Source: Pleurocapsa sp. FMAR1 (GTDB lineage Bacteria; Cyanobacteriota; Cyanobacteriia; Cyanobacteriales; Xenococcaceae). Taken from it: a stretch of DNA of 64,000 bases. How positions within the stretch are numbered: position 1 is the first letter of the stretch; each line of letters opens with the position of its first letter. The notes beneath the pieces were generated by a model. It was given only the letters and a program-made list of their open reading frames with translations. It was not told the DNA's origin and did no database searches. The stretch lies in assembly GCF_963665995.1 (NCBI RefSeq), contig NZ_OY762512.1, positions 1,178,001 to 1,242,000 on the forward strand, given 5' to 3'. Both the position numbers and the translations under genes were made by a program. Of this stretch, positions 11,764 through 35,896 are shown one piece after another.

Positions 11764-11803
11764 ACGGGGCGTAGCGCAGCTTGGTAGCGTACCACTTTGG
11801 GGT
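11764..11803 (+). repeat. Left attachment site (attL): 5' half of tRNA-Pro
   Basis: This 40-base sequence, beginning ACGGGGCGTAGCGCAGCTTG and ending ACCACTTTGGGGT, is identical to 35822-35861. It covers the acceptor 5' strand, D-arm and anticodon stem-loop of tRNA-Pro; what follows is not tRNA. It is the left copy of the target-site duplication of the element. Confidence 0.9.
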
Positions 11804-11923: not shown

Positions 11924-12505
11924 TCATGCTGCAATATGATTCCATCTAGTTCCAGTGTTGATAGTACTGATTATCTGTTGACTAACATTGAATTTGGCAG
12001 CTATATCCTTTTGCAAAATATTACTTTTTAGCAATTGTTTGATTTGGATTACTTCTTTGAGAGTTAGTTTAGCGTAATGATGCTTCTCTCCTTTGGGCTG
12101 TAATCCATTTTGATAAGCGTGTATTTGCTGCTCAGATTGAGTATTCCATTCTAAGTTACACAAATTGTTATCAATCTTACAGCCATTGATATGATTCACT
12201 TGAGGTTTGTGGAATGGATTAGGTAAGAATGCTTGAGCTACAAGACGATGTATTGACCTGCTCTTTCTTTTTGCATTAAGCAATAGATGAACCTTAAAAT
12301 AACCTTTATTCGTTATGCAGGGTTTCAGAACTTTCCCTTTAGCGAACTGTTTTTTTCCATTTTGCTGAGTGATAATACGGTCTAGACTTTTTACTCTACC
12401 AAAATTTGAAATTTGGTAGTAACTTTCATAATCTGGGATATCTAACCAATATTCAGTTAAGCCACTTAATTGTGGTACTAATTTTATTTTTGATATTTTT
12501 TGCAT
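11924..12505 (-). CDS. HNH homing endonuclease-like protein (NUMOD4-HNH-HTH)
   Basis: The domain order is typical of phage-type free-standing HNH endonucleases: an N-terminal NUMOD4-like motif (WLDIPDYESYYQISNFGRVKS), a central HNH core (HRLVAQAFLPNPFHKPQVNH and INGCKIDNNLCNLEW) and a C-terminal helix-turn-helix (LTLKEVIQIKQLL...DIAAKFNVSQQIISTIN). Such enzymes nick or cut DNA and promote their own spread. It lies at the left end of the element, pointing towards attL. All core residues appear present and the frame is intact at 193 residues. Confidence 0.88.
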   Translation of the reverse strand: MQKISKIKLVPQLSGLTEYWLDIPDYESYYQISNFGRVKSLDRIITQQNGKKQFAKGKVLKPCITNKGYFKVHLLLNAKRKSRSIHRLVAQAFLPNPFHKPQVNHINGCKIDNNLCNLEWNTQSEQQIHAYQNGLQPKGEKHHYAKLTLKEVIQIKQLLKSNILQKDIAAKFNVSQQIISTINTGTRWNHIAA

Positions 12506-15885: not shown

Positions 15886-18090
15886 ATGGGAAATATTGTT
15901 GGAATTGATTTAGGAACAACCAATTCGGTTGCTGCTTTTAAATTTGCCAATCTCGAAGTGGTCACTGCGCCAGATAATCCTGCACCCGATCGCACTCTTA
16001 CTCGTTCTGTGATTGCGTTGGAAAACAATCAAATTATCGTAGGAAACGATGCTTACCAAAAGCTAAAAGCCGATCCAGAGAATGTCATTATTTCGATTAA
16101 ACGTCTGATTGGAAGAGGTTTTGGCGATTCTGTAGTTCAACAGCAATTAGATCGTTTTGCATATAAAATCGCTCAGTCCACAAAGGGTACAGAAAATAGT
16201 CTTTCGGTGTGGTTAGGAGGGAAAGAATACGAGCCTGAAGATATTGGTGCTGAAATTTTAAAAAAAGTAGTGCAGAATGCTCAAACTTATCAAGAACAGC
16301 AAGGACAAAGAGAAAGAATTACTAAGGCAGTGATTACTATTCCTGCTTATTTTAATGACAAACAAAGACACGCTACTCAAATAGCAGCAACTAGAGCAGG
16401 ATTAGCGGGATCGGAACTTTTACCAGAGCCAACAGCAGCAGCTATTTCTTATGGATTTAAACCAGACTCCGACGATGTAAAAACTATTTTGGTTTATGAC
16501 TTTGGTGGTGGTACTTTTGACTCATCTATAGTAACTGCTGCTGGCAATCAATTTATTGAATCTGGTAAAGCAGGTGATTTATGGCTTGGTGGAGATGATA
16601 TAGACGATCGCCTAATCGATTTTGTTAAACAGCAGGTAGCAGAAACAGAAGATTTAGATGATATTGATGGCTTAATTGCTAAGATGCCGCATTATCAGAG
16701 AGTTCGTTTTTTGGGCGATCTAAAAATGGCTGTAGAACAAGCCAAAATTCTGTTAAGTAGCAATTCTACAGCTAAAATTATGCCTTCTACTCCTCTACTA
16801 GATGATTTAGGAATGGCTATATCTATTGATGTAGAGATTACCCGCGAACAGTTTGAGAGCATAATTTTACCCCTGGTGGAACGTTCTATTTCCGTCTGTA
16901 AAAATGCGATTAAGTATTCTGACTATCCAGAGGACATGATTGATGTTGTATTACTGGTAGGTGGTTCATCACAAATTCCTTTGGTACAGCGAAAAGTTAA
17001 ATTAGCCTTTGGTGCAGAAAGAGTAGTAGTTCATCCACGCCCCATGTATGCCGTGGCTGAAGGTGCTGCTATTCAAGCTGCTGGGTTGGTAGAAAAGGTT
17101 GGTACGGTTTCTCGCGACTATTGTATTGAATTAGTTAACGATCCCAGACACAAACTTATTGAACAAGGAGATATTCTTCCAGTCAAAACTACTCATACTT
17201 TTAGAACAGAAGCAGATGGACAAAGCTTAATTCACTTTAAGTTTTATAGTCCTGATAATGTCAACAAGCGAGATGATGAGCGAATTGGGGATATGTGGTT
17301 AGCATTGGATAAAGCTTATTCTAAAGGAACAGAGATTTTGGTAACAGCAGAGTTGGATGAGAAAAATGGCTCACTTCAAACTACAGCTATTTTGAAAAAC
17401 GATCCTTCTGTCAAAGTTAGCTGTTCTCTATCAACTGGCGGAGAAGATGAAAGTATTTCTCGCGACGTAGAAGAGACTATTAAACAATTGAATCAAGAGG
17501 GCAATTTAACTGAACATGGAGTTCAGGAAGTCTATCGCATTGCTGGAGAAACAGTTAGGGCTGCTAATCAAATTAAAACTCAAGATGGAAAAATAGAGGA
17601 AGATCGAGCTAATGCAGCAAAAGAAAAATCGCAAGAGTTAAAAAGATTTGCTGACGACGATTACGATACTGCGGAATTTTTTATCAGATACTTTAAATTT
17701 ATTACAGAAGAATGTGATTTTCTACTTCCCTCAAGTCAGAAAGCGCGACTAGAAACTCTGTCTAGAGATTTGAAAAATGCAGTTTCTAGAAATGCTAAGG
17801 GTGATATACACAAACTTTGCGAAGATGCTAAACGAGAGTTAGATAATCTTCCTGAAAAAGTCTCGCTAATCCTGGCTTGTCGTGATGGAGTGTCGAGAGC
17901 GCATCAAATCGAACCAAACAAAGCCAGAGTATTGGCTGGGAAATTCTCTCAAATGATTGATGCTCTAAGACGTGAGGAAGGCTACGAAGCTCAAAAACTG
18001 TTTGAAGAGTTAGCAGAAGGTATTCGTCCTTATTGGGATCGAGAGCTTCCTACTTCTAACAACAGCATTGCTACAGGATTAACCCGATAA
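15886..18090 (+). CDS. Hsp70/DnaK-family chaperone with extended C-terminus
   Basis: The ATPase domain has all Hsp70 signatures: GIDLGTTNS (6-14), VYDFGGGTFD (203-212) and LLVGGSSQIPLVQ (about 350-362), plus the linker-proximal VAEGAAIQAAGL. The substrate-binding half diverges strongly from housekeeping DnaK. The tail is about 100 residues longer than usual (734 in total), mostly charged helix, and lacks the DnaK EEV-type ending. It starts a five-gene plus-strand operon with LysM, TPR, J-like and GrpE-like genes. It probably folds or remodels specific clients rather than serving as the main DnaK. It is cargo of the tRNA-Pro element. Confidence 0.88.
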   Translation: MGNIVGIDLGTTNSVAAFKFANLEVVTAPDNPAPDRTLTRSVIALENNQIIVGNDAYQKLKADPENVIISIKRLIGRGFGDSVVQQQLDRFAYKIAQSTKGTENSLSVWLGGKEYEPEDIGAEILKKVVQNAQTYQEQQGQRERITKAVITIPAYFNDKQRHATQIAATRAGLAGSELLPEPTAAAISYGFKPDSDDVKTILVYDFGGGTFDSSIVTAAGNQFIESGKAGDLWLGGDDIDDRLIDFVKQQVAETEDLDDIDGLIAKMPHYQRVRFLGDLKMAVEQAKILLSSNSTAKIMPSTPLLDDLGMAISIDVEITREQFESIILPLVERSISVCKNAIKYSDYPEDMIDVVLLVGGSSQIPLVQRKVKLAFGAERVVVHPRPMYAVAEGAAIQAAGLVEKVGTVSRDYCIELVNDPRHKLIEQGDILPVKTTHTFRTEADGQSLIHFKFYSPDNVNKRDDERIGDMWLALDKAYSKGTEILVTAELDEKNGSLQTTAILKNDPSVKVSCSLSTGGEDESISRDVEETIKQLNQEGNLTEHGVQEVYRIAGETVRAANQIKTQDGKIEEDRANAAKEKSQELKRFADDDYDTAEFFIRYFKFITEECDFLLPSSQKARLETLSRDLKNAVSRNAKGDIHKLCEDAKRELDNLPEKVSLILACRDGVSRAHQIEPNKARVLAGKFSQMIDALRREEGYEAQKLFEELAEGIRPYWDRELPTSNNSIATGLTR

Positions 18091-18092
18091 CT

Positions 18093-18126
18093 ATGCCCCC
18101 TAAATCCCCCAACATTGGGGGACTTA
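18093..18126. repeat. CCCCC/GGGGG hairpin repeat
   Basis: CCCCCTAAATCCCCCAACAT followed by TGGGGGACTTAG forms a short GC hairpin in the spacer after the Hsp70 gene. This kind of word is frequent in cyanobacterial intergenic DNA. It could attenuate transcription inside the operon. Confidence 0.45.
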
Positions 18127-18162
18127 GATAATATTTTTCGTTCTTCACATCTTAAAAGAATC

Positions 18163-18726
18163 ATGTCAGTAAAGTTAACCTGTCCTGTTTGCGATCGCTC
18201 GCAGATCGAAGACAATACTTGTCCTAATTGCGAAACTAATCTTTCTACTTATCGAATGCTGGCAGAATTACCAGTAGAAACACCCGTAGAAAGAAAAGAA
18301 CAAAAGCGAACTATTCCTTTGTGGTTACCTGTGGGTGTAGCCATTTTATTTCTGCTACTGGGTATTGGCTTAGGATTTGCAGGTAATTCTGTTATTGCCA
18401 AACAACAGCCAAAAACTACACCAACTTCTACCACTGCTTCTAATCAAACATCCGAAACCAAAGCAGATCAATTAGTCGTATCTCCTACCGTTGTGGAAAA
18501 GCCTCAAGGAGTAGAAAAGTCTGAATCAAAATCCTGTGGCGGCTTTAACTACGTAGTGAGAAAAGGAGATTCTTTATCCTTAATTGCTTCGCGTCTTTAT
18601 GGAGACATTAACTCTTGGTCATTAATTAGTAAAGCTAATCCAGCAATACAAGGTCGAGAAAGTTCGATAGAAATTGGAGAATTATTATTTGTACCTAATC
18701 TTAAGAACAATTGCCAAAACATTTAA
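18163..18726 (+). CDS. Zinc-ribbon, single-pass membrane, LysM protein
   Basis: The start at 18163 (MSVKLTCPVCDRSQIEDNTC) is preferred over an upstream TTG. Order: a CxxC...CxxC zinc ribbon (residues 6-25, cysteines in CPVC and CPNC), a membrane helix (LWLPVGVAILFLLLGIGLGF), a Thr/Ser-rich linker, and a C-terminal LysM domain (YVVRKGDSLSLIASRLYGD...LLFVPN). The LysM part should lie outside the membrane and bind glycan, while the ribbon faces the cytosol near the Hsp70. It is the second gene of the chaperone operon. Confidence 0.8.
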   Translation: MSVKLTCPVCDRSQIEDNTCPNCETNLSTYRMLAELPVETPVERKEQKRTIPLWLPVGVAILFLLLGIGLGFAGNSVIAKQQPKTTPTSTTASNQTSETKADQLVVSPTVVEKPQGVEKSESKSCGGFNYVVRKGDSLSLIASRLYGDINSWSLISKANPAIQGRESSIEIGELLFVPNLKNNCQNI

Positions 18727-18817
18727 TTACTCAAAGACTTTTCAGTGTTTATACGCAATAAAGATCTGTAATATCTGAATTAATTTCTCTAATTAAACTT
18801 CTAAAAGAATTAAGCGT

Positions 18818-21085
18818 ATGCCATTTTTACTTTTTCTTATTATTTTAATAGGCTTAGGTAGCTTCATATTCATCCAATATCGAAAGCACCATAAAGCTAA
18901 TGAACTTTATATTGAAGCCAAAGAATTAGAAACGAAAGATACTAGAAGTCCTTACGATACAACTAAGCTTAAACAAGTTCTTACACTATATAAGCAGTGC
19001 AGTAAATTAGTTAATAAACCCGAATTTGTCAAAGCTGCAAATCAATGTCAGCAAAAAATAGACGATTGCCAAAGATTTCAGCAACTAGTAGCTGAAGGTA
19101 GAAAAAAAGCTAAAAGAAATTATTTTAGAGAAGCATTACGTGATTTTACGCAAGCCAAGAAACTTTTTTCCACCACTGAATTAGAAAGCGAAATATCTAA
19201 ATGTCAGGAAAGTATTAAGCACCAAAAAAAGTATGAAAGGGTTTTAAAACAGTCCGCTCAAATAGCTAGACAAGGACAATTTAAAGAAGCAATTGATTTA
19301 CTTATACCTGCACTCGATAAATTTCCTCGTGAAGATGGGCAACACTTACTAAGTAAATTACGACAAGTAATACGAGCCAAAGACTTATATAAATTGGGGT
19401 TGATTGCAGAAAATAAAGCTCAACTTCAAGAAGCGATCGCCAATTACAAACAAGCATTAGATCTATTACCAGAATTTACTGAATGCAAAATTAGGCTGGC
19501 TATTATTGTTGTTAAACAAAAACCCAAACAAACAATTTCTTATTTAGAAAGAATAGAGGGAGAACAAGCAGCTTATATTCGTGGTTTTGCTCATATTCAA
19601 TTGGGAAACTGGCAGCAAGCAGATAGAGAATGGCAGTCTATTTCTAAAGTCAGTATAGAAATAGTTCAGCGTCCTATTCTTAAACGTTTGGCAGAATGCG
19701 ATCGCTTATTACAAATTAAAGAAATTGAATCTACGGTTGATAATAACAACGTTGAGATAGCTAAAAAACTTAGTTTAGAATTTATCAACAAGTTTGGCTC
19801 AGAACCTACAGTAAAGCAAAACTTAGAAAATTATATCCAACCTTTTTTAGATCGTCAGATTTGGAAAAGTCAAAACTGGCAAGAAATAGCTGCAAAAACC
19901 GAACAAATTTGGTTAGAACAACAGGATATTAACTCTTTGCACAATTGGGCGATCGCTAGCTACTATCTTTCTCAAACAGATTCCAGTAAGTTAGATTATT
20001 TCATTATTGCTTGGTCAACAGCTTTAGCAAATATAGAGTTCAATCCTACACTACAAGACATTCCTTGGTTGGGAAATAACTCCATAGATATAAAAGATAT
20101 TTTTGCCAAACTAAAACAAATACTGGAAAATGCGATCGATGCTGTAAAAGATGAGGATATTAATAAGTATCTTAAACTACGAGATATTTATCGTCGAGAC
20201 ATGGTGACATTATCTTTAATTCAGCAGAATGATTGTGGGATGAGAATTAAGCAGCAATTGTTTATTCTTCCTGGCTGTTACCAGCGTTTTTGCGATCGCT
20301 TTCCCGAAATCAAATTTCCTGTTCAAATCTTGGGCGCACTATACACAGATTGGGGATTGGCTGTAGCAGCTTGTCACGACGGAGATACAGCCCGTGCTAT
20401 TAAAATTAAACCTAGCAAAAATCCATCTTCCGTTGCCGATCGCTTTGCTAGTTGCTTTGTCGCCTACCATGAAGGTTGTTATTATCTGCAAAATCTAGAA
20501 TGGCGTGAAGCAATTAAATCTCTTCAGCAAGCTCAATCTGAGATTAAAGTTAAGTCTGTTTGGTCTAAAGAAATAGATAAACTTTGTGAATTACAGCGTA
20601 AGAAAATAGATGATTTTGAAGAACATCTAGAATTTAGTCAATTCTGGTACGAACTTATAAATAGTCAAGCTGCTAAAAGTTATTTTGCTGAAAAAAAAGC
20701 TATACAAGTCGGTATAAAACTGGACGACAAAAAAATTAGTCCCGAACAAGGACTAAAAGAATTGAAAGAAGTAGCAAGTATCGATCCAAATAATTCTTTT
20801 ATTCTCGATTTGATACAAAGAGTAGATATATCAATCGAAGCGGAAAAAATTGATCGTTTAATAAAACAAGGACAATTTAGTGATGCAATTATGGTAGCAA
20901 AACGATCTCGCCATGAAAAAATCCGCTTTAGACTTGCTGAGATGTGTATAGACTTACTGCTCGAAGGTGCTAAAAATCGTAGTTTGAACTTTGAAACTAT
21001 GCACCAACTTGGACGATGGGCTTATGAACTTTGCCCACGCGAACCAGCATTTCAACCGATTTATAGCCAATTAGGAATTTATTAA
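18818..21085 (+). CDS. Membrane-anchored TPR-repeat protein
   Basis: A single N-terminal membrane helix (MPFLLFLIILIGLGSFIFIQ) is followed by about 720 residues of helical repeats. TPR-type units are visible, for example GLIAENKAQLQEAIANYKQA (near 195-215) and QSAQIARQGQFKEAIDLLIP. The last third (DLIQRVDISIEAEKIDRLIK onwards) continues the solenoid. TPR solenoids scaffold protein complexes and often dock Hsp70 tails. It is the third gene of the chaperone operon, probably holding the module at the membrane. Confidence 0.75.
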   Translation: MPFLLFLIILIGLGSFIFIQYRKHHKANELYIEAKELETKDTRSPYDTTKLKQVLTLYKQCSKLVNKPEFVKAANQCQQKIDDCQRFQQLVAEGRKKAKRNYFREALRDFTQAKKLFSTTELESEISKCQESIKHQKKYERVLKQSAQIARQGQFKEAIDLLIPALDKFPREDGQHLLSKLRQVIRAKDLYKLGLIAENKAQLQEAIANYKQALDLLPEFTECKIRLAIIVVKQKPKQTISYLERIEGEQAAYIRGFAHIQLGNWQQADREWQSISKVSIEIVQRPILKRLAECDRLLQIKEIESTVDNNNVEIAKKLSLEFINKFGSEPTVKQNLENYIQPFLDRQIWKSQNWQEIAAKTEQIWLEQQDINSLHNWAIASYYLSQTDSSKLDYFIIAWSTALANIEFNPTLQDIPWLGNNSIDIKDIFAKLKQILENAIDAVKDEDINKYLKLRDIYRRDMVTLSLIQQNDCGMRIKQQLFILPGCYQRFCDRFPEIKFPVQILGALYTDWGLAVAACHDGDTARAIKIKPSKNPSSVADRFASCFVAYHEGCYYLQNLEWREAIKSLQQAQSEIKVKSVWSKEIDKLCELQRKKIDDFEEHLEFSQFWYELINSQAAKSYFAEKKAIQVGIKLDDKKISPEQGLKELKEVASIDPNNSFILDLIQRVDISIEAEKIDRLIKQGQFSDAIMVAKRSRHEKIRFRLAEMCIDLLLEGAKNRSLNFETMHQLGRWAYELCPREPAFQPIYSQLGIY

Positions 21086-21096
21086 AGAGAAAATCA

Positions 21097-21465
21097 ATGA
21101 ACAAATCGCCTGCACCAAACCCTTATGATGTTTTGGAAGTATCCCCTGGAGCATCCAACAAAGAAATTACTGTAGCCTTTGCCATGGCAATGAAGCGTCG
21201 TAAATATCCTCCTGATGCGATCGCTCTTGCTCGTAAAAGTTTAATGAATCCTGAAGAGAGAATCATCGCTAATTATCTGCGCCCTCTCATTGGTAATGTT
21301 AAACGTTTTAAACGCAGCGATTTTTCGGCTTTGAATACACCAGCACCCAAACTAGAATTTTTATCAGAATTTGATGGTTTGGAACAGGCGATCGCAGATA
21401 GCAATAAAGTATCACAAAGCGATCGACGATTGGGGGCAGTATTATTTGCAGATTCTCCTATTTAG
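21097..21465 (+). CDS. Small J-like protein with altered HPD motif
   Basis: Residues 8-60 follow the J-domain pattern: NPYDVLEVSPGASNKEITVA in helices I and II, then KRRKYPPDAIALARKSLMNP. Where a J-domain has HPD, this one reads PPD (YPPD), so the histidine needed to trigger Hsp70 ATPase is replaced. The J-like part is short and followed by about 60 residues of unknown fold. It begins 11 bases after the TPR gene. It may deliver clients or inhibit Hsp70 rather than activate it in the classical way. Confidence 0.7.
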   Translation: MNKSPAPNPYDVLEVSPGASNKEITVAFAMAMKRRKYPPDAIALARKSLMNPEERIIANYLRPLIGNVKRFKRSDFSALNTPAPKLEFLSEFDGLEQAIADSNKVSQSDRRLGAVLFADSPI

Positions 21466-21507
21466 ACAAAAACCACTCAAGATAATACTTTTACCAAAAC
21501 CTCTACT

Positions 21508-21990
21508 ATGACTACTAATCAATTACCAGCTTTAAAACTAAACGATGAACAGAGAAATCAACTTCAACAGGAATTAGGAACTCTGCTTAAAGAAAAAATG
21601 TCTCTCAAGCAAACTATACAGCAACAAGGGGAAAAAGCAACATCAGAAAAAGAAGAACTATTTCTAGAATTGCTAGAAGTTTTCGATGCTCTGGAATTTT
21701 TTCTTAATTACATTGAAGAAAATCCCGATCCCAATCCCAAATTTTTTAAGCGTTTACCAAAATCTTTGGGAACTATTCAGAAAAAGCTACTCAATATTCT
21801 TGAGCGCAGACAAGTAGAGCCAATTGAGTTTCAAAATACTAAACCTGACTATAGTATTTGCCAAGTAGTCGATCGCGAAGAGAGAGAAGATATTGAGGAG
21901 CAAACAATTACGAAAGTAGTTCGTCAAGGATTTCGAGTGGAAGATAAAGTTTTACGTCCTATTGAAGTTATTACGTCTAAAAAACCATAA
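21508..21990 (+). CDS. GrpE-like nucleotide exchange factor
   Basis: The protein has the GrpE layout: an N-terminal coiled coil (QRNQLQQELGTLLKEKMSLK), a helical middle (LLEVFDALEFFLNYIEENP) and a small C-terminal beta domain ending VRQGFRVEDKVLRPIEVITS, the counterpart of the GrpE signature GYxxxDRVLRPAxVxV. GrpE releases ADP from Hsp70. It is the last gene of the operon and supplies the exchange step, so a full Hsp70 cycle kit is encoded together. It is divergent from housekeeping GrpE. Confidence 0.78.
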   Translation: MTTNQLPALKLNDEQRNQLQQELGTLLKEKMSLKQTIQQQGEKATSEKEELFLELLEVFDALEFFLNYIEENPDPNPKFFKRLPKSLGTIQKKLLNILERRQVEPIEFQNTKPDYSICQVVDREEREDIEEQTITKVVRQGFRVEDKVLRPIEVITSKKP

Positions 21991-24544: not shown

Positions 24545-25474
24545 ATGTACGATAATTCTAACATTTCAAATCATTTAAGTGCGCTATTAAACACTATTAA
24601 AAGTGAATTATCAATAGTAGATGAAATTAAGGGTACGACTGCGATCTCTTTATCTGGTACTGAAAGATGTTTAAAAGTACCCATCTATCAACTCAGTAGA
24701 GATTTAAATAAAGAAATATCACATAACTTAGATACCTTTGCATTTTCTGACTTTTCGTTAGCTGAAAAGCTTACTCTACATGGCTTTAACCCCTTTGCAT
24801 TTTTTCAAGGAAATGGAGTAGCAGCACAGATACCCGATATAGCATTTGGAATAATTGCTAATCATTATGCAACTAAACTAGGTAAAGACTATACCGATCA
24901 CTGCCAGATGGTAGCAACGGCTCTTATTGCTAGTGGGGCTAGAAAATTATTTAGACAGGTTTTAGGCTGGAAACAAGATCGACAAATTAACTCCATAGAA
25001 GAACAATTAAAAGTAGCCAAATTTATCGGAAACGAGATTGAAGCTAAATTTAATAATTCTGGTATTGGTAAACAATTAGCTTTAAAAATATATAGTATTG
25101 TTGCTCCTAATAAATTTTTACCCATCCTAGAAGAGGCTAAAATGCTATTAGCTGAAGCGAATGCTGTCGATAGTAAAAATCTTTATACTGCAACTAATAT
25201 TTTCCACGAATTAGTAGAGCGAGGTTTTGTTCAATATAATACTGCCCGTAAAGTTAATAATCTGTTAGAAAAACTTGGATTACAAACTAAGCCTAAGAAG
25301 AATTGGATAGCTACTAATAAGGCTAAAAATCTAGACCTTTGTTCAGAAATGGAAATTACTGCTTCCTTTAAGCAGAAAGATAATAAATGGGTCGGCAAAC
25401 AGCTACGCTGGAAACAACCTGTTATTAACTATATTGCTGCCGAACTAGAAGACAATATTAATATAGCTTCTTAA
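24545..25474 (+). CDS. Unknown element protein with antirepressor-like C-terminus
   Basis: The only long plus-strand gene in the right half of the element; 309 residues. The C-terminal 100 residues (ARKVNNLLEKLGLQTKPKKN, then WIATNKAKNL and WKQPVINYIAAEL) resemble the winged-helix tail of phage antirepressors, where a helix is followed by W-x-xT-xKG and a closing W. The N-terminal two thirds (GFNPFAFFQGNGVAAQIPDI) are not recognised. It is isolated by terminators on both sides. If the resemblance is right, it would regulate element genes; confidence in that is low. Confidence 0.5.
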   Translation: MYDNSNISNHLSALLNTIKSELSIVDEIKGTTAISLSGTERCLKVPIYQLSRDLNKEISHNLDTFAFSDFSLAEKLTLHGFNPFAFFQGNGVAAQIPDIAFGIIANHYATKLGKDYTDHCQMVATALIASGARKLFRQVLGWKQDRQINSIEEQLKVAKFIGNEIEAKFNNSGIGKQLALKIYSIVAPNKFLPILEEAKMLLAEANAVDSKNLYTATNIFHELVERGFVQYNTARKVNNLLEKLGLQTKPKKNWIATNKAKNLDLCSEMEITASFKQKDNKWVGKQLRWKQPVINYIAAELEDNINIAS

Positions 25475-26129: not shown

Positions 26130-27686
26130 CTAAGAGAAAGGTTTTTCTTCTAAAGAGGCATAAGTCATACCTGCATAGCCAGAGGCTTGCAGTACAGCTT
26201 CATTAGGAATAGTACCAACGGTGATTACCCCGTCCATTTCATTCTGAATAACTTTGTAATCGTATTGAAGACTCATAATTGTTAAATGATGAATAAACGC
26301 TGCTTCCTGACCTTGTAAAACAAATGCAGCTATCTTAGCTTTACGTTGCCAAATATCCTTACCTTTAGGTAGATCGTTAACACAGATTTTAGTACCAGTT
26401 GGATTACTCACGTACAGCTTACTTGCTGCATAATTGCCAATCTTTTTAACATAGGTGCTTAATAACCATTCGTGCCATTTTGTGATTTCTTTTTGCAGGG
26501 GAGAAACAACGTCACTAAATTTACATAAATAGTTGGCAGCTAATGCAAATTCACCGCTTGCTTCCTCCATCAGGTATTCCCAAATTTTAGCATTATTGGT
26601 TTTCTGACCTTTAGTTGGAACATAACCGCCCATTAGTAAAGCGCATAGACATTGCTTCCATGTGTCTACACTAATTTCAATTTCGGCAGAGTACTCGTAC
26701 TTAGCCTGTTTATTTTCTTTATAATTTTCTAACCAAGTAGTGTCTAATTCTGCTAATTTAAACTGTTGGATTAAACCTATGACTTGACTACTTCTTAAAT
26801 CGTAATTTCTTAAGTTTTTCACATTTGTAAAAGCTTTTTTCTTCATCTTTCTACTGGCATTTTGCATAAAGGTGTGTATTCTTCCAGTACTCGATACCGT
26901 GTAATTTGGAGTATATGAATAGAATCCTGGGAAAACTTCGATTATATCTTGATTAAGAGCCTTTTCTAAACAAGTACTATCATTATAAAATCTACCTCTT
27001 GCCTTTTTGTATTCAATGCTATCTTTTCCAGAGACAATTTTAGATTCAACCATACTAATCTTTAAATCATTAATATGTTTTTCAACTGGAGCTAATTCAA
27101 ATATACATTTAGGAATACATTTGATAGATTCTACTATTAATTTAGGATAAGGATGCTTATTACGATCGTAAAACTTGCTTTTGTTAATAGCTCTACATCT
27201 TTTACCATTGAATAAATTAACTTTGGTGGCTGCCATATATTCAGCAGCACAAATATCCCGTAATTCAATAAATCTTTCAACAATATTTTCTACAACTCTG
27301 TAACTAGTACAGATGTGAAATTCAGCCGAATAACTATAACCTTTTTCCTCATCAATAATAAGACGTTCGATTATACACTTATTTACTAAATTCTGTACAT
27401 CAGCCTTTTTACAAAATCTTTTTTTTACCACATAGGGAACTGGAACATAACCTTTATTTCCTTTTATGTATTCATGTAATTGGCAACTCATAATATGAGC
27501 TACAAGTTTAAAACTATCTTCGTTAGCCCACGGCATCAAACCTTTTATGTATTCATACTGCGATTTTAATACCTTACAATGATGCTTAATATAAGATTTT
27601 GACTTAAGACTACCAGTTTTTTTTACACTAGACTTTTGTGCTATAATTGGGAGGATCGATGTATTTATTAATTTATTAGTCATCAA
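26130..27686 (-). CDS. Divergent family A DNA polymerase-like protein
   Basis: The second half follows the family A polymerase order. STGRIHTFMQNASRKMKKKA (265-284) resembles the TGR...PNLQN...R motif. NYDLRSSQVIGLIQQF (294-309) resembles motif A (DYSQIELR), with D296 as metal ligand. WKQCLCALLMGGYVPTKG (343-360) resembles motif B (RxxxKxxxFGxxYG). AAFVLQGQEAAFIHHLTI then VIQNEMDGVITV (453-490) resembles the PIQGTAAD helix and motif C (HDE), with D485. No exonuclease or 5' nuclease domain is present and 518 residues is short. It would replicate element DNA; a primase-like or inactive role is possible. Recognition is by motif only. Confidence 0.55.
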   Translation of the reverse strand: MMTNKLINTSILPIIAQKSSVKKTGSLKSKSYIKHHCKVLKSQYEYIKGLMPWANEDSFKLVAHIMSCQLHEYIKGNKGYVPVPYVVKKRFCKKADVQNLVNKCIIERLIIDEEKGYSYSAEFHICTSYRVVENIVERFIELRDICAAEYMAATKVNLFNGKRCRAINKSKFYDRNKHPYPKLIVESIKCIPKCIFELAPVEKHINDLKISMVESKIVSGKDSIEYKKARGRFYNDSTCLEKALNQDIIEVFPGFYSYTPNYTVSSTGRIHTFMQNASRKMKKKAFTNVKNLRNYDLRSSQVIGLIQQFKLAELDTTWLENYKENKQAKYEYSAEIEISVDTWKQCLCALLMGGYVPTKGQKTNNAKIWEYLMEEASGEFALAANYLCKFSDVVSPLQKEITKWHEWLLSTYVKKIGNYAASKLYVSNPTGTKICVNDLPKGKDIWQRKAKIAAFVLQGQEAAFIHHLTIMSLQYDYKVIQNEMDGVITVGTIPNEAVLQASGYAGMTYASLEEKPFS

Positions 27687-29660: not shown

Positions 29661-32600
29661 TTAGGCTACGCTAAGACCATTCTGAACAAAGGATTGCCAG
29701 GTTTTTAGAGCATCAGCAAATGGATTACCTTCATTAACTTGAGCGGAGTTGAATAGAGAGTTGACTTCAGTGCCGTCATAAATAAAAGCACCTTTGGTTA
29801 GTGAACGGAATAAACCATTGGCAAGAGCTTCTTCTCTGATACCACTAGCTTTTGCGTCTTTAGCAAAGAAATTGCCCGCGCATTCAACTTTTGATTGAAC
29901 TAAGTGCTGTGCAAAGAATATAGCAGCAGCATTCTTAACTTCGGTGCTTAAACCAGCACCACTACCAGAATTCGCTCTGCGTAACTTTTTGTTAATCATG
30001 CTAGATGAACTACCTTTATGGATACCTAGATGAACCTTGGCGCGTTCTTTTAAGTCAGCAAATGCTTTCTCATTATCATCTGTGTATCCAGATAATCCCG
30101 CACTTTCGTAATATACAAACGAACATCCTTTAATACCTATTACTTCGGCTTCACTGAATACACCACCATTATTGATTTTGTTGATGTAGGTAGAATAAGC
30201 ATTGAACATAACAGAGTAACCTTGCCCAACACGTTCTCTGTAGTGTCTAGCTACTTTCTCAGCTTCTTCTAGAATGTTAATCTCGATTTCTGTGGCAGGG
30301 TTAAGCACACTGAACTTTTCTCGACATTTGATAATCCCTGAATAGAGATTCTCGCACCCAAATGCGTCCATAGTTTTATTAGCGATCGCTTGTCCGACAA
30401 GTTCGTGCTTCATTAAGCTACCAGCTACAGTGCTTGGGTTAATGGCAATACCCTCTTTAGTAGTGAAGCAATTGCTATTAACATTAGCTACACCAATTTG
30501 GTTAGCAGGACATACCCATAACACATCTCCATCATTATCTGTCTGGCTACTCCAGGCTAGTACAGACGGACTAACTGCACAAGTATATTTGCCACAAACA
30601 GTCTGATTTTTAGCAGTACGGATAATAGCAGGAGTAAGATCCACCATAGGATTACGATAGAAAAATACTACATCGCCGTCTTTAATAGCCTTAGCTAATT
30701 TACCATCCTTGCTGATAGCAGTGCCTTTAACAAGAGGATTGTTTTCGTCTACCAGAATGACTGGGACTTCTTCACCGCCGTGTAGTTCAAAACCAGCTTC
30801 AGGATTAGAAAGAACTTTCATACCGTGAGTAGTATAGACTGCGCTACCTTTGGTAAATGCCTTCTTGTTATGGACAACATCTTTACGCCATTCATCTAAT
30901 GTTACTCCTAAGCCCATAGCATAGTCAGCAATTAACTGAGAGCAGGAAGTTTTATCAGCAAGAAGATTTAGGAAGGTATATACATTACAGACTCTTTCAT
31001 CGAAAGACCATCCGCTATTACTGTCAAAGCTTCCTTGTATGCTCAGAAGATGTGTAGGGATTCTAACTGTCCAATGACGAGTTCCTTTATTAGTGCTGCC
31101 ACTGATTTTAATGCCTTGTGGAAACTTCTGAGCTAGGCTACGGAAGAATTCACGGGGATTGTGCTTTTTGTTAGCAATAGTTAGTAAGTGAGCCAGAACA
31201 TCACGAGTTTCCATAGGAACAGGAGCTATCTTAAAACGCAAGTCGAAGTGAGCATCAACTTTAGAACTAGCACATAGTTCAATTGTTCTACTAATTTTCT
31301 TAGAGTGCTGTTTAATAGTGTTGCGAACAGTTTTGTTGATGAAGCTACCAGGAGTTCCAAAGGTGCTTAGGTGAGCAGACTGGATTGCAGATAACTTACG
31401 ACCGACACTAAAGTTTTCCGCAATAGAACTTAATTCCACAGCATATACAATAGGTGCTTCGATACCTTCAGCTTTGAAGGTAATGCGAACACGACCGTTG
31501 CCAATAATTTCTTTATTGCTAACGGTAGCAAAAGCATCGGGATTCGCTCTTTCAAAGAGTAATAGTTCTTTTTCAGTAGTGATAAGAGAAACAGTGTAGG
31601 ATTTGATGTATTTATTATCAAGGTCTGCTTGAACTTTAGAGAATTTAATTGCTTCTTTTTGTTGAGTAAAGGTTTCAGTATCTTGGCAGTAATCTACAAG
31701 ATAAAATTCTCCGTCTTTACCGAAGCTGACTAACTTGTCTTCAGACTCCGCCCACATACGAATGAGAGTTGCTTTGCGGTTCTTAACCGAGTTATCGTTA
31801 AAGATAATATTTGCTTCTACTCTGCCTTCTTTTGAATTAACAACAACATCGTTATTACGAGTAGTCATACCTTTGAACCACTGACCGCGAAGTTTGGCAT
31901 TACTATCGATAACTGTGGATAGGGTTTTAAGCTCGATGGCGATAGTGCGAGTCTCAGTGTTAATGGCTTTGCCTTTCTTAACTATAGGCTCTTTAGAAAC
32001 TGTAAGCTCTAAGTTAGTGTTGTTTTGGATTATAGGTAGGTTTTGGAACTCAATAATTTCACTAGGAGCAATCACTTTACCTTCTAACTCAGAGTTTAAG
32101 TAAGCTTTAAGCTCATCTTTGATAAACTTAACTTGGTTATTTCTGTTAGATCCAGCTAGAGCCACTACTTCAGTTTTATATTCTGGATTAGTAGCAAATA
32201 ACAAATCAATGTTTAGGCTACCGTCTAGACGTTTGCAGGTAGTATAGGTAATATCATTTCTTACTACACATCCACCATCACCAACGGCTAGGGATAGTAA
32301 TGGAGTGTTGAGATATAAACTATTTTGCTCAAGACCATAATGGGCAGCAAAGCGATTGTCAGAGATTTCAGCAAAGAGTCTATCAAAGCTTTTATCTTCT
32401 TCAGCAATTACAGCACTGATATGTTTGACCATTGCGTGACGGTTGAAGAATTTTCCGCCTTTGTCATTGCTAACCATAGAGATTCTGCCGTTAGCCGATA
32501 CACCCATAACTCCCAAAGCATCTTTTACAAACGCTCTTTTAGTATTAGTTTTATCAGGCAGTGCAAAGCCAAAAGCTTTAGTAGCAGCATCTAAACAATC

Positions 32601-33212
32601 TTTAACCCAAGCAGTCTTGGTATCGCGATCGCTTTTAAGTATGATAAAGCCTTGTTTGTTGACGTGGAAAGCACAAACGCTATTTGCAAGAAGAACTTTT
32701 TGAGCATCGACAAGGTTAGCTCGATCTTGCTCAATGTTAGCGTAATTGTAGTTATCAGGATTATGTTCTTCAACTTCACCGTCAGCTACAAGCACAGTGC
32801 CTACCAATCCATTAAGGAACTGGGTTGTATTTTTACGCTGTCCTTTACTTTCTAGCCGATCCTCCACAGTATCTAAGATTTTATTAACTACTTCTTCAGT
32901 AGTAGGAATAGTAAATAAATATTCATTAGTCTCGAAGTCGAGTTGTTTCTGAGCGCAGATTAGATTGTCAGCTATTTTATAAGCATTACCGCCATCCCAA
33001 GCAATAAGTTTTTCAGCAACGCTATACTCTATTGTTAGATTAGTATCAGCATTGATATTTCCATAACCTTTAAAGTTATAGGATACTGCTTTGGCATCAG
33101 ACGAACCCTTAAGTCTTTTGTTGTTGATTTCAGGATTAGACATTTGATTTTCTCCTTTTATATTATTAGATTGAAATGAATTATTAGAAACACAATTATT
33201 TAAGTTGGACAT
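29661..33212 (-). CDS. Candidate single-chain two-barrel RNA polymerase
   Basis: The 1183-residue protein is the largest of the element. Residues 849-865 (VFFYRNPMVDLTPAIIR) and 881-902 (SPSVLAWSSQT, then DNDGD at 892-896, then VLWVCP) match the catalytic double-psi barrel of RNA polymerase beta' (RAPTLHR, then HPLVCxAFNADFDGDQMAVHVP). R853 to D892 is 39 residues, close to the 35 in E. coli beta'. About 100 residues upstream, THGMKV (795-800) recalls the beta-barrel motif HGxKG. Both barrels in one chain would match YonO-like and QDE-1-like enzymes. Two starts have ribosome sites: ATG 33212 (GAGG) and ATG 33143 (AAGGAG, stronger). The rest is unrecognised. Confidence 0.5.
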   Translation of the reverse strand: MSNLNNCVSNNSFQSNNIKGENQMSNPEINNKRLKGSSDAKAVSYNFKGYGNINADTNLTIEYSVAEKLIAWDGGNAYKIADNLICAQKQLDFETNEYLFTIPTTEEVVNKILDTVEDRLESKGQRKNTTQFLNGLVGTVLVADGEVEEHNPDNYNYANIEQDRANLVDAQKVLLANSVCAFHVNKQGFIILKSDRDTKTAWVKDCLDAATKAFGFALPDKTNTKRAFVKDALGVMGVSANGRISMVSNDKGGKFFNRHAMVKHISAVIAEEDKSFDRLFAEISDNRFAAHYGLEQNSLYLNTPLLSLAVGDGGCVVRNDITYTTCKRLDGSLNIDLLFATNPEYKTEVVALAGSNRNNQVKFIKDELKAYLNSELEGKVIAPSEIIEFQNLPIIQNNTNLELTVSKEPIVKKGKAINTETRTIAIELKTLSTVIDSNAKLRGQWFKGMTTRNNDVVVNSKEGRVEANIIFNDNSVKNRKATLIRMWAESEDKLVSFGKDGEFYLVDYCQDTETFTQQKEAIKFSKVQADLDNKYIKSYTVSLITTEKELLLFERANPDAFATVSNKEIIGNGRVRITFKAEGIEAPIVYAVELSSIAENFSVGRKLSAIQSAHLSTFGTPGSFINKTVRNTIKQHSKKISRTIELCASSKVDAHFDLRFKIAPVPMETRDVLAHLLTIANKKHNPREFFRSLAQKFPQGIKISGSTNKGTRHWTVRIPTHLLSIQGSFDSNSGWSFDERVCNVYTFLNLLADKTSCSQLIADYAMGLGVTLDEWRKDVVHNKKAFTKGSAVYTTHGMKVLSNPEAGFELHGGEEVPVILVDENNPLVKGTAISKDGKLAKAIKDGDVVFFYRNPMVDLTPAIIRTAKNQTVCGKYTCAVSPSVLAWSSQTDNDGDVLWVCPANQIGVANVNSNCFTTKEGIAINPSTVAGSLMKHELVGQAIANKTMDAFGCENLYSGIIKCREKFSVLNPATEIEINILEEAEKVARHYRERVGQGYSVMFNAYSTYINKINNGGVFSEAEVIGIKGCSFVYYESAGLSGYTDDNEKAFADLKERAKVHLGIHKGSSSSMINKKLRRANSGSGAGLSTEVKNAAAIFFAQHLVQSKVECAGNFFAKDAKASGIREEALANGLFRSLTKGAFIYDGTEVNSLFNSAQVNEGNPFADALKTWQSFVQNGLSVA
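33143..33163 (-). promoter_or_regulatory. Strong ribosome binding site at the internal start
   Basis: AAAAGGAGAAAATCAAATG on the minus strand places AAGGAG 8 bases before the ATG at 33143, codon 24 of the longest frame. It favours a 1160-residue product. Confidence 0.5.
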
Positions 33213-34446: not shown

Positions 34447-35617
34447 TTAAAGTTCTGGAATATCAAATTCATTTTTAGCAGCTAAGTAATGTTTAATGAT
34501 AGTTTCAGGACTGTTGCCAGATATTCTTGCAACAGTAGCAATATCCCAACCATCTCGGATTAATCTAGTAATAAAAGTGTGTCGCAGAGAATAGGGACGA
34601 AAAGCCTTTTCTAATCTCTCGTCTTCTATCAAGCCACTTACAATAGTTTTCCAGTAGCGTCTATTAAATGTTTTCTGGTTTACATAACCCAGTGACACGC
34701 TAGGAAATATTAAATTATGTTTATTTTCAGAAGTAGCCATTGTATTGAGTAGTGTCTTTAGCTGCTGATTAATTGGGAACAGTCTGATTTCATGTGTCTT
34801 AGTATGAGGTAGCAAGATACCTTGGCTGTAGGCTTTATTAAATCGAATATAAAGCCTGTCATTATTACGTTTAATATCATCCCAAGTTAAAGCATGACAT
34901 TCACTAGGTCTACATCCCACTAAACTAATGAAGTCAATCATGGGAGCATAGTATGAGTGAGGATAAATACTGCTGGGTTTGACATATTCATCACTATAGA
35001 ATGCACTGACTATAGCCTTTACTTCATGTGGGTTCATAAGCCTCGATAGGCTTCTTACCTTTGTTTGCTATTGATATTGCAGCATATATATTGCGCTCTA
35101 TCTTTCCCATCTTAACTGCCAGATTAACTGAAGGATTGAGGCAGTTAGAGAAGATAGGTAATATTGAACCCGAACTATAGCGAGTCAATAAGTGAGCTAC
35201 AAATTCACTAGCTCTATCAAGTTCCAATAGTTCTTTTGGTGTTTTACCTAGGTAGTGTTTTTCATATTGTGTCCAATGCTTTTTCTTTGTAGTAGCAGCA
35301 ACTCTTTCCTTACTTATTTCTTTATACGTTTGCCAAAGATCAATTAAACTTGGTTGCTTATTTGCTAATTGAAGTCTTGAAGCTCTTCTAATACTATACT
35401 TGGCGAGCGTTTGATCGTAATTTTCTGTTTCAATATCTGAGTTGATTATGTTTGCCAGCCTAATAGCAGAAGCCCAAACAACATCACTATCTTTACCTAC
35501 TGTTAAGTCTTCTTTTGTGTTTGTGGGATAGGTGAAGCGAATTTTAACTGAACCGTTTCTAACTGACAGGCTAACACGCCCAATTTTAGCTTTTCTCTCT
35601 TCGTTGTTGATATACAT
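34447..35617 (-). CDS. int: Tyrosine integrase of the element, split by an apparent +1 frameshift
   Basis: Two overlapping frames make one integrase. The first (35617-35024) holds the N-terminal and core-binding domains (MYINNEERKAKIGRVSLSVR) and ends GKKPIEAYEPT. The second (35037-34447) starts at MNPHEVKAIVSAFYSDEYVK and carries the catalytic residues: R in GCRPSECHALTW, HTKTHEIR, H-xx-R in YSLRHTFITRL, and Y in IIKHYLAAKNE. Skipping one base after a CCC codon (GAA CCC A CAT GAA) restores PIEAYEPHEVKAIV. The region is one base out of frame but otherwise intact. It may be a programmed +1 shift, a sequencing error or a recent inactivating mutation. It reads away from the adjacent tRNA-Pro. 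Confidence 0.8.
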
Positions 35618-35821: not shown

Positions 35822-35861
35822 ACGGGGCGTAGCGCAGCTTGGTAGCGTACCACTTTGGGGT
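35822..35861 (+). repeat. Right attachment site (attR) inside tRNA-Pro
   Basis: Identical to 11764-11803 over 40 bases. The crossover is therefore in the 5' half of the tRNA, up to the anticodon loop, rather than in the more usual 3' half. Confidence 0.9.
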
Positions 35862-35896
35862 AGTGGGGGTCGTGGGTTCAAATCCCGCCGCTCCGA
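35823..35896 (+). tRNA. tRNA-Pro (anticodon GGG)
   Basis: The 74-base cloverleaf is complete: acceptor CGGGGCG/CGCTCCG (one G-U), D-stem GCGC/GCGT, anticodon stem CCACT/AGTGG with loop TTGGGGT, T-stem GTGGG/CCCGC with loop TTCAAAT, discriminator A, no encoded CCA. Positions 34-36 are GGG, which reads CCC and CCU proline codons. Its first half is the right copy of the 40-base att repeat, so its 5' half and promoter are supplied by the element. A weak -10 (TATGAT, 35802-35807) precedes it without a good -35. Confidence 0.95.

Follow-up and report, generated by a model that had tools for sequence, protein, structure and literature searches.

A TV-Pol-like family A polymerase with an N-terminal domain in a cyanobacterial integrative element: a probable replication-initiating primase-polymerase

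A 518-residue protein encoded in a 64,000-nucleotide stretch of Pleurocapsa sp. FMAR1 DNA (the window) is of the TV-Pol type, combining a nuclease-free family A core with an N-terminal domain, and is probably the primase-polymerase that initiates replication of its element. The gene is real, intact and of the TV-Pol kind of family A, a group that is already known. Primases are usually assigned to two families, DnaG-like and archaeo-eukaryotic (PMC7581432); TV-Pols are a further source, of which CCPol-MP is a member with characterised biochemistry. The branch described here is found in cyanobacterial prophages, integrative elements and a plasmid, may be self-contained, and lacks the Glu that helps to exclude NTPs. 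The family is worth testing for its altered nucleotide-gate residue and its attached N-terminal domain. The branch would suit tests of how the Pol I fold gains chain initiation and of the origin of RNA synthesis within the family, and the plasmid, with its polymerase, could provide a new cyanobacterial replicon.

The gene, its motifs and its predicted fold

The gene lies where the first-pass annotation of the window had placed it, at 26130-27686 on the minus strand; its 518-codon ORF begins with TTG and is uninterrupted by stops. It comprises the following features.

26130..27686, minus strand: TV-Pol-like family A polymerase, 518 aa (ORF, AlphaFold2, Foldseek, VIA-align)
27171..27593, minus strand: N-terminal domain, residues 32-172, weakly winged-helix-like (own model)
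26955..27095, minus strand: thumb, two helices 198-219 and 224-244 (DSSP of the model, within the 172-518 match)
26133..26942, minus strand: palm and fingers, residues 249-518 (model, fold match, alignment)
26799..26801, minus strand: motif A catalytic Asp296, in NYDLRSSQ (D in 18/18 rows)
26655..26657, minus strand: motif B Lys344, in helix 340-351 (K in 18/18 rows; helix in the model)
26232..26234, minus strand: motif C catalytic Asp485 (D in 18/18 rows)

All the polymerase signatures claimed from the letters are present: T267-G268-R269, D296 (NYDLRSSQ), K344 followed by G353-G354-Y355, and D485 (NEMDGV). Their family A order exceeds chance, with D296, K344 and D485 invariant in an 18-row family alignment and a fold match of Z 20.8 over 311 residues. 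The alignment, from which the residue counts below derive, leaves out the member in genome G633 (L065), a weak match in genome G392 and Ma-LMM01 gp030, and includes L019 as a C-terminal piece only and L037 as part of an ORF. The proposed motif B is borne out at K344; its Tyr slot, placed by spacing from K344, falls on M352 and not on Y355. We take this slot to correspond to E. coli Y766. R269, preceded in the model by a β-hairpin (strands 249-252 and 255-258), is Arg in 15 of the 17 rows with a letter there, and the two Vibrio rows have an Arg two residues further on. The residue before D485 is Met484 in the window protein and His in the other 17/18 rows.

The protein is as divergent as had been supposed. 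Pfam, including PF00476, gives no match above cut-off for the window protein or eight relatives, whereas GR7B_00076 matches PF00476 at 7.2e-42. A PDB sequence search with the window polymerase returned no match, and PHROG 34692 matches it weakly (1.1e-4). Exonuclease domains, reported absent, are indeed undetectable: no nuclease model of Pfam exceeds its cut-off for the window protein or for the eight relatives. The only Pfam match of the window protein is to NUMOD4 at 14.9 bits against a cut-off of 23.4, and NUMOD4 was rejected as its identity.

An AlphaFold2 model built from 12 alignment rows has a pLDDT of 83.8 and a pTM of 0.79. The predicted structure supports the family A assignment: model residues 172-518 match family A DNA polymerases, and the part before residue 172 forms a small domain. 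The best VIA-align match is Pol theta (Z 20.8, rmsd 3.4, 311 residues aligned), with T7 DNA polymerase at Z 19.1 and Klenow at Z 18.7; the best 50 of 334 Foldseek matches are all family A DNA polymerases, the best at E 5e-7. By DSSP, strand 292-297 carries D296 close to its end, and D485 sits in the turn that links strands 478-482 and 486-490; both modelled positions fit motifs A and C of a palm.

Modelled alone, the N-terminal domain (residues 32-172) has a pLDDT of 82.8 and mixes helix and strand, with VIA-align Z scores of at most 6.0 among the matches listed and a best Foldseek E of 0.13. Winged-helix proteins account for many of these listed matches, including plasmid initiator domains, MarR regulators and ORC subunits. 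The modelled resemblance to a winged helix is suggestive only, and not significant. The interpretation of a divergent, exonuclease-free, family A-type polymerase on a mobile element thus stands, whereas its description as palm and fingers alone does not, given helices 198-244 in the place of the thumb and the N-terminal domain before them. Stand-alone polymerases on small elements, said to be unusual, do occur here, but the TV-Pol family had already been described (PMC2579912).

Known systems, the nucleotide gate and the thumb

TV-Pols were described by Iyer, Abhiman and Aravind in 2008 as nuclease-free family A cores of transposons and viruses (PMC2579912). According to that account, a subset carries an N-terminal globular domain predicted to be all-helical, the neighbours are often gamma-delta resolvases, lambda-type integrases or IS transposases, with one Bro-N/KilA-C case, and Microcystis phage Ma-LMM01 is listed as a carrier (PMC2579912). 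Our family HMM matches Ma-LMM01 gp030 at E = 1.1e-31, with a best domain spanning 356 residues. No other ORF matched significantly in a set of 1031 drawn from Ma-LMM01 and from pieces of GR7B, MG592441 and T7, the GR7B pieces being without its family member; T7 gp5, T7 RNA polymerase and GR7B_00076, all within this set, gave no match. The gp030 protein, which belongs to PHROG 34692 and whose gene adjoins a transposase gene, is presumably the TV-Pol meant by Iyer et al.

With TV-Pols the present family shares the nuclease-free core, the extra N-terminal domain of the subset, the integrase, resolvase and KilA-C settings and the match to gp030, and the window protein has the two antiparallel thumb helices, the Arg-bearing β-hairpin and the two conserved palm Asp residues. 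The RxxxK of the TV-Pol fingers is less clear: K344 is present in 18/18 rows, but Arg at K-4 in only 1/18. The placement may be wrong, since Ma-LMM01 gp030 also has no RxxxK at its assigned place. The family further differs from TV-Pols in an N-terminal domain modelled as helix and strand, against the all-helical prediction, and in that no D5 helicase was detected among the neighbours covered by Pfam scans, which make up a minority of the total.

CCPol-MP of SCC elements is a primase-polymerase whose CCPol subunit is placed among the TV-Pols and, without MP, is described as capable only of primer extension (PMC7581432). The present family resembles CCPol in its exonuclease-free family A core within an integrative element and in the shortened stretch of the last thumb helix. 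In contrast, CCPol retains the equivalents of E710 and F762 and uses dNTPs, whereas the family has Gln or His at the first of these positions; CCPol also has no N-terminal domain and needs the partner MP and an operon helicase, whereas no such partner was identified here.

E710 and F762 of E. coli Pol I discriminate against ribonucleotides (PMC7581432). At the E710 equivalent, five residues after the motif A Asp (D+5), the family has Gln in 17/18 rows (Gln301 in the window protein) and His in 1/18. Controls counted on alignment columns, without requiring Glu, have Glu in 10/10 PolA and Gly in 5/5 T7-like RNA polymerases, and divPolA2 has Glu in 4/6, with His and Trp in the other two. An hhalign alignment of the family with PolA, colinear over 214 columns and not significant (E 0.24, reversed control 0.45), pairs D296/Gln301 with T7 gp5 D475/E480; motif B is out of register in it, and it was used solely for the motif A correspondence. 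With the Glu that helps to reject NTPs replaced, NTP use by the family is a hypothesis; discrimination may persist, Gln being almost as large as Glu.

The fingers positions were placed in the family by spacing from K344, not by residue-level structural alignment. The F762 equivalent (K+4) is Leu in 5, Tyr in 5, Met in 4, Cys in 2, Ile in 1 and His in 1 of the 18 rows, and never Phe; the controls have Phe in 9/10 PolA, with Tyr in T7 gp5, and Met in 5/5 T7-like RNA polymerases. This position decides nothing, because five rows resemble T7 DNA polymerase and four the RNA polymerases. At K+8 the family has Met in 14, Phe in 2, Ile in 1 and Asn in 1 (n = 18), and the controls have Tyr in 9/10 PolA and 5/5 T7-like RNA polymerases.

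The last thumb helix falls within the stretch between a conserved Gln and motif A, and this stretch measures 20-22 residues in 16/18 family rows and 30 residues in the two Vibrio rows. Among PolA controls (9/10 measured) it spans 29-30 residues in eight Pol I of the phylum and 37 in T7 gp5; in divPolA2 (3/6 measured) it spans 21. Primer-free initiation has been linked to a shorter last thumb helix (Bebel 2020, PMC7581432; Rice 2023, PMC10061031).

The divPolA2 proteins of barbaviruses and Vibrio phages (PMC11348598) share with the family a nuclease-free, divergent family A palm, an N-terminal domain and the short Gln-to-motif A stretch. They differ in belonging to PHROG 4756, against 34692 and 30690 for the family here, and are described as being without a homologous thumb (PMC11348598), whereas the window model has one. 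As a label for the family, divPolA2 was rejected: its member AUR84708 gave no hmmsearch match at E up to 10, nor with another profile up to 1, and hhalign returned a probability of 0.2. The alignment of divPolA2 with PolA (hhalign E 0.01) is better than that of the family here. The plasmid Reps CyRepA and CyRepX, described as having helicase-type domains (PMC10899382), were likewise rejected as candidates.

Distribution, genomic settings and role

The host genome holds one copy of the polymerase and a weak, stop-broken 83-residue match (E = 0.039). Counting that genome, 6 of the 386 genomes in a phylum sample have a match, as do 8/388 in an order sample searched with the family profile, one of them weak (1.7e-6). 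The sole match among 72,556 plasmid records is Calothrix sp. NIES-4105 plasmid6, circular and 13.7 kb long, and a single-protein query matched 2 of 50,697 phage records, the Vibrio phages GR7B and GR11A. Relatives occur in six viral contigs plus L037, and in five genome contigs, from Calothrix brevissima NIES-22, Nostoc sp. JL34, Picosynechococcus PCC 7117, a SAR324 MAG and Desulfosarcina widdelii. No relatives turned up when viral contigs were scanned with just the window protein, with the Vibrio pair or with L017 as query. Several of the relative records are one locus reached repeatedly (e.g. L013, L020, L026 and L033). No report of TV-Pols in cyanobacterial prophages came up in a limited literature search.

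Genomic context was compared across 18 sources, namely 17 loci and the window; some loci end close to the gene (L018), and the counts are lower bounds. The polymerase is present in 18/18 sources, and the next commonest family, tyrosine integrase, in at least 7/18, with KilA-C/Rha-type regulators in at least 4/18 and serine recombinases in at least 3/18. Terminase-like and other genes of one prophage group were counted in 4/18 sources each, and small recurrent neighbour genes in no more than 4/18. The settings comprise cyanobacterial prophages, the circular plasmid, Vibrio phages and small tRNA-flanked elements, the polymerase gene lying between two tRNA-Glu in L015 and between two tRNA-Ala in L017. 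Seven ORFs of plasmid6 scanned with Pfam contain no known Rep, and the possibly incomplete prophage records L021 and L023 have no match to DnaG_N, Zn_ribbon_DnaG, Toprim_2, Prim-Pol or DnaB_C. GR7B and GR11A each encode both a Toprim_2 and a DnaB_C protein, and DnaG_N has a match in Ma-LMM01, so that TV-Pol is not needed there as the sole primase; GR7B also has a separate canonical family A polymerase. A search for iteron arrays beside the gene found only two-copy repeat families.

An RNase HI gene lies directly downstream of the TV-Pol gene in GR7B (L004:9417-10067) and GR11A (L005:9379-10038), an arrangement that would fit RNA-DNA hybrids. GR7B_00070 (L047:809-3679, minus strand) has helicase-family matches and an intein splicing domain. 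Three prophages and Ma-LMM01 have in common a family of 313-388 aa (L014:7841-9007, L016:4967-6109, L021:5741-6865 and L096:32748-33689), two members of which were scanned and gave no Pfam match above cut-off.

As an initiating primase-polymerase, the protein would work in three steps. The N-terminal domain, which probably binds DNA, would present the element's origin or a single-stranded template to the active site; with no primer in place, the palm would couple an initial pair of nucleotides and elongate the new strand; and host replication proteins would then take over. We infer that the N-terminal domain binds DNA, that the protein primes de novo and that it serves replication; that a TV-Pol can start DNA synthesis without a primer has its precedent in CCPol-MP (PMC7581432). 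The fold, the relationship to gp030, the mobile contexts, the short thumb stretch, CCPol-MP and the two prophage records that gave no match to the five primase or helicase families count for this reading. Against it count the Toprim_2 and DnaB_C proteins of GR7B and GR11A and the DnaG_N match of Ma-LMM01, the unclear RxxxK, the lack of an iteron array beside the gene and of a D5 helicase among the neighbours scanned, and a winged-helix resemblance that is not significant; de novo geometry is further opposed by the 30-residue stretch in the Vibrio rows and by the short stretch of divPolA2, which is not known to prime de novo. A bolder proposal, that this TV-Pol branch acts as a single-protein initiator, beginning chains with ribonucleotides or with ribo- and deoxyribonucleotides alike, and that its own N-terminal domain replaces the separate MP/SSB partner of CCPol and recognises the origin, is unlikely, and is lowered by the Tyr at K+4 in 5/18 rows, as in T7 gp5.

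Replacement of the dNTP-selecting Glu at D+5 by Gln or His in 18/18 rows would also suit a single-subunit RNA polymerase that, in parallel with T7 RNA polymerase, transcribes element or phage genes and reads promoters with its N-terminal domain. This is quite improbable. The Met at K+4 in 4/18 rows, as in 5/5 T7-like RNA polymerases, the DNA-binding-like N-terminal domain and the proposal that divergent phage PolA variants are possible RNA polymerases (PMC11348598) speak for it, but the best 50 of 334 Foldseek matches and the 50 VIA-align matches listed are all DNA polymerases, hhalign against T7-like RNA polymerases does no better than the reversed control, D+5 is not their Gly (5/5) and K+8 is never their Tyr, and very small elements hardly need a transcriptase of their own. 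Improbable, too, is a conventional DNA polymerase that depends on primers and serves in repair or in filling gaps, with no initiator role: the changed D+5 residue, the shortened thumb-helix stretch and the small-element carriers, which have no other recognised replication gene among the ORFs scanned, argue against it. It would be consistent with Pol theta, T7 DNA polymerase and Klenow as the closest folds among the matches listed, with Tyr at K+4 in 5/18 rows, as in T7 DNA polymerase, and with CCPol, which alone is described as merely extending primers (PMC7581432).

There is a smaller but real chance that the family consists of functional primase-polymerases and that the copy in the window is decaying. 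Met484, in place of the motif C His of the other 17/18 rows, and the integrase split in two ORFs are the reasons for suspecting it, and the eight nearby ORFs scanned include no phage structural gene. However, the 518-codon ORF is intact, D296, K344, D485 and other invariant residues are kept, and the structure is predicted with good confidence.

The element in the window

Around the polymerase gene, the window contains the following features.

11764..11803, plus strand: exact 40-nt match to 35822-35861, the 5' part of tRNA-Pro; a possible second attachment site
24545..25474, plus strand: Ant-like regulatory protein, weak (phrog_130 anti-repressor Ant, E = 3.5e-4)
29661..33212, minus strand: 1183-aa protein, RNA polymerase candidate of the first-pass annotation, with a DNDGD motif (ORF)
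34447..35617, minus strand: split tyrosine integrase, with two overlapping ORFs (34447-35037 and 35024-35617) in different frames
35823..35896, plus strand: tRNA-Pro(ggg), probable attachment site (ARAGORN)

The integrase ORF at 34447-35037 has a Phage_integrase match at 2.3e-20, and each of the two ORFs aligns with a portion of an integrase that related elements encode as one ORF. The Ant-like ORF has no Pfam match, and Pfam and PHROG scans of the eight nearby ORFs gave no phage structural gene. The element adjoins tRNA-Pro(ggg). If the partial tRNA copy at 11764 marks the other end, the element would form a 24-kb island. This left border is uncertain, because the same 24 kb also contains an Hsp70/TPR/GrpE cluster and because of comparison with two relatives of the host: on the left side of tRNA-Pro, G516 has nothing that matches the window's first 40 kb, and G550 only two integrase fragments that do (window 34867-34938 and 35579-35617).

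In G550 (L062) the integrase fragments adjoin the same tRNA-Pro, suggesting its repeated use by elements of this kind. The cluster, at 15886-21990 on the plus strand, encodes in a row Hsp70, a zinc-ribbon/LysM protein, a TPR protein, a short ORF that is possibly DnaJ-like, and GrpE; it has the partial tRNA-Pro copy on one side and the element on the other, and represents either cargo or host genes.

The 1183-aa neighbour has no Pfam match and no match in 72,556 plasmid records or in any of the other 385 genomes sampled from the phylum. Its distant relatives, 21.6-22.9% identical, occur in Ma-LMM01-type Microcystis phages; Ma-LMM01 gp064 (L096:43811-48832, minus strand), at 22% identity, has the motif as DADGD. 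A NUMOD4/HNH endonuclease gene (11924-12505, minus strand) adjoins the partial tRNA copy, and the PCC 7117 prophage has a relative (E = 3.5e-17) next to its polymerase gene (L013:11497-12057, minus strand).
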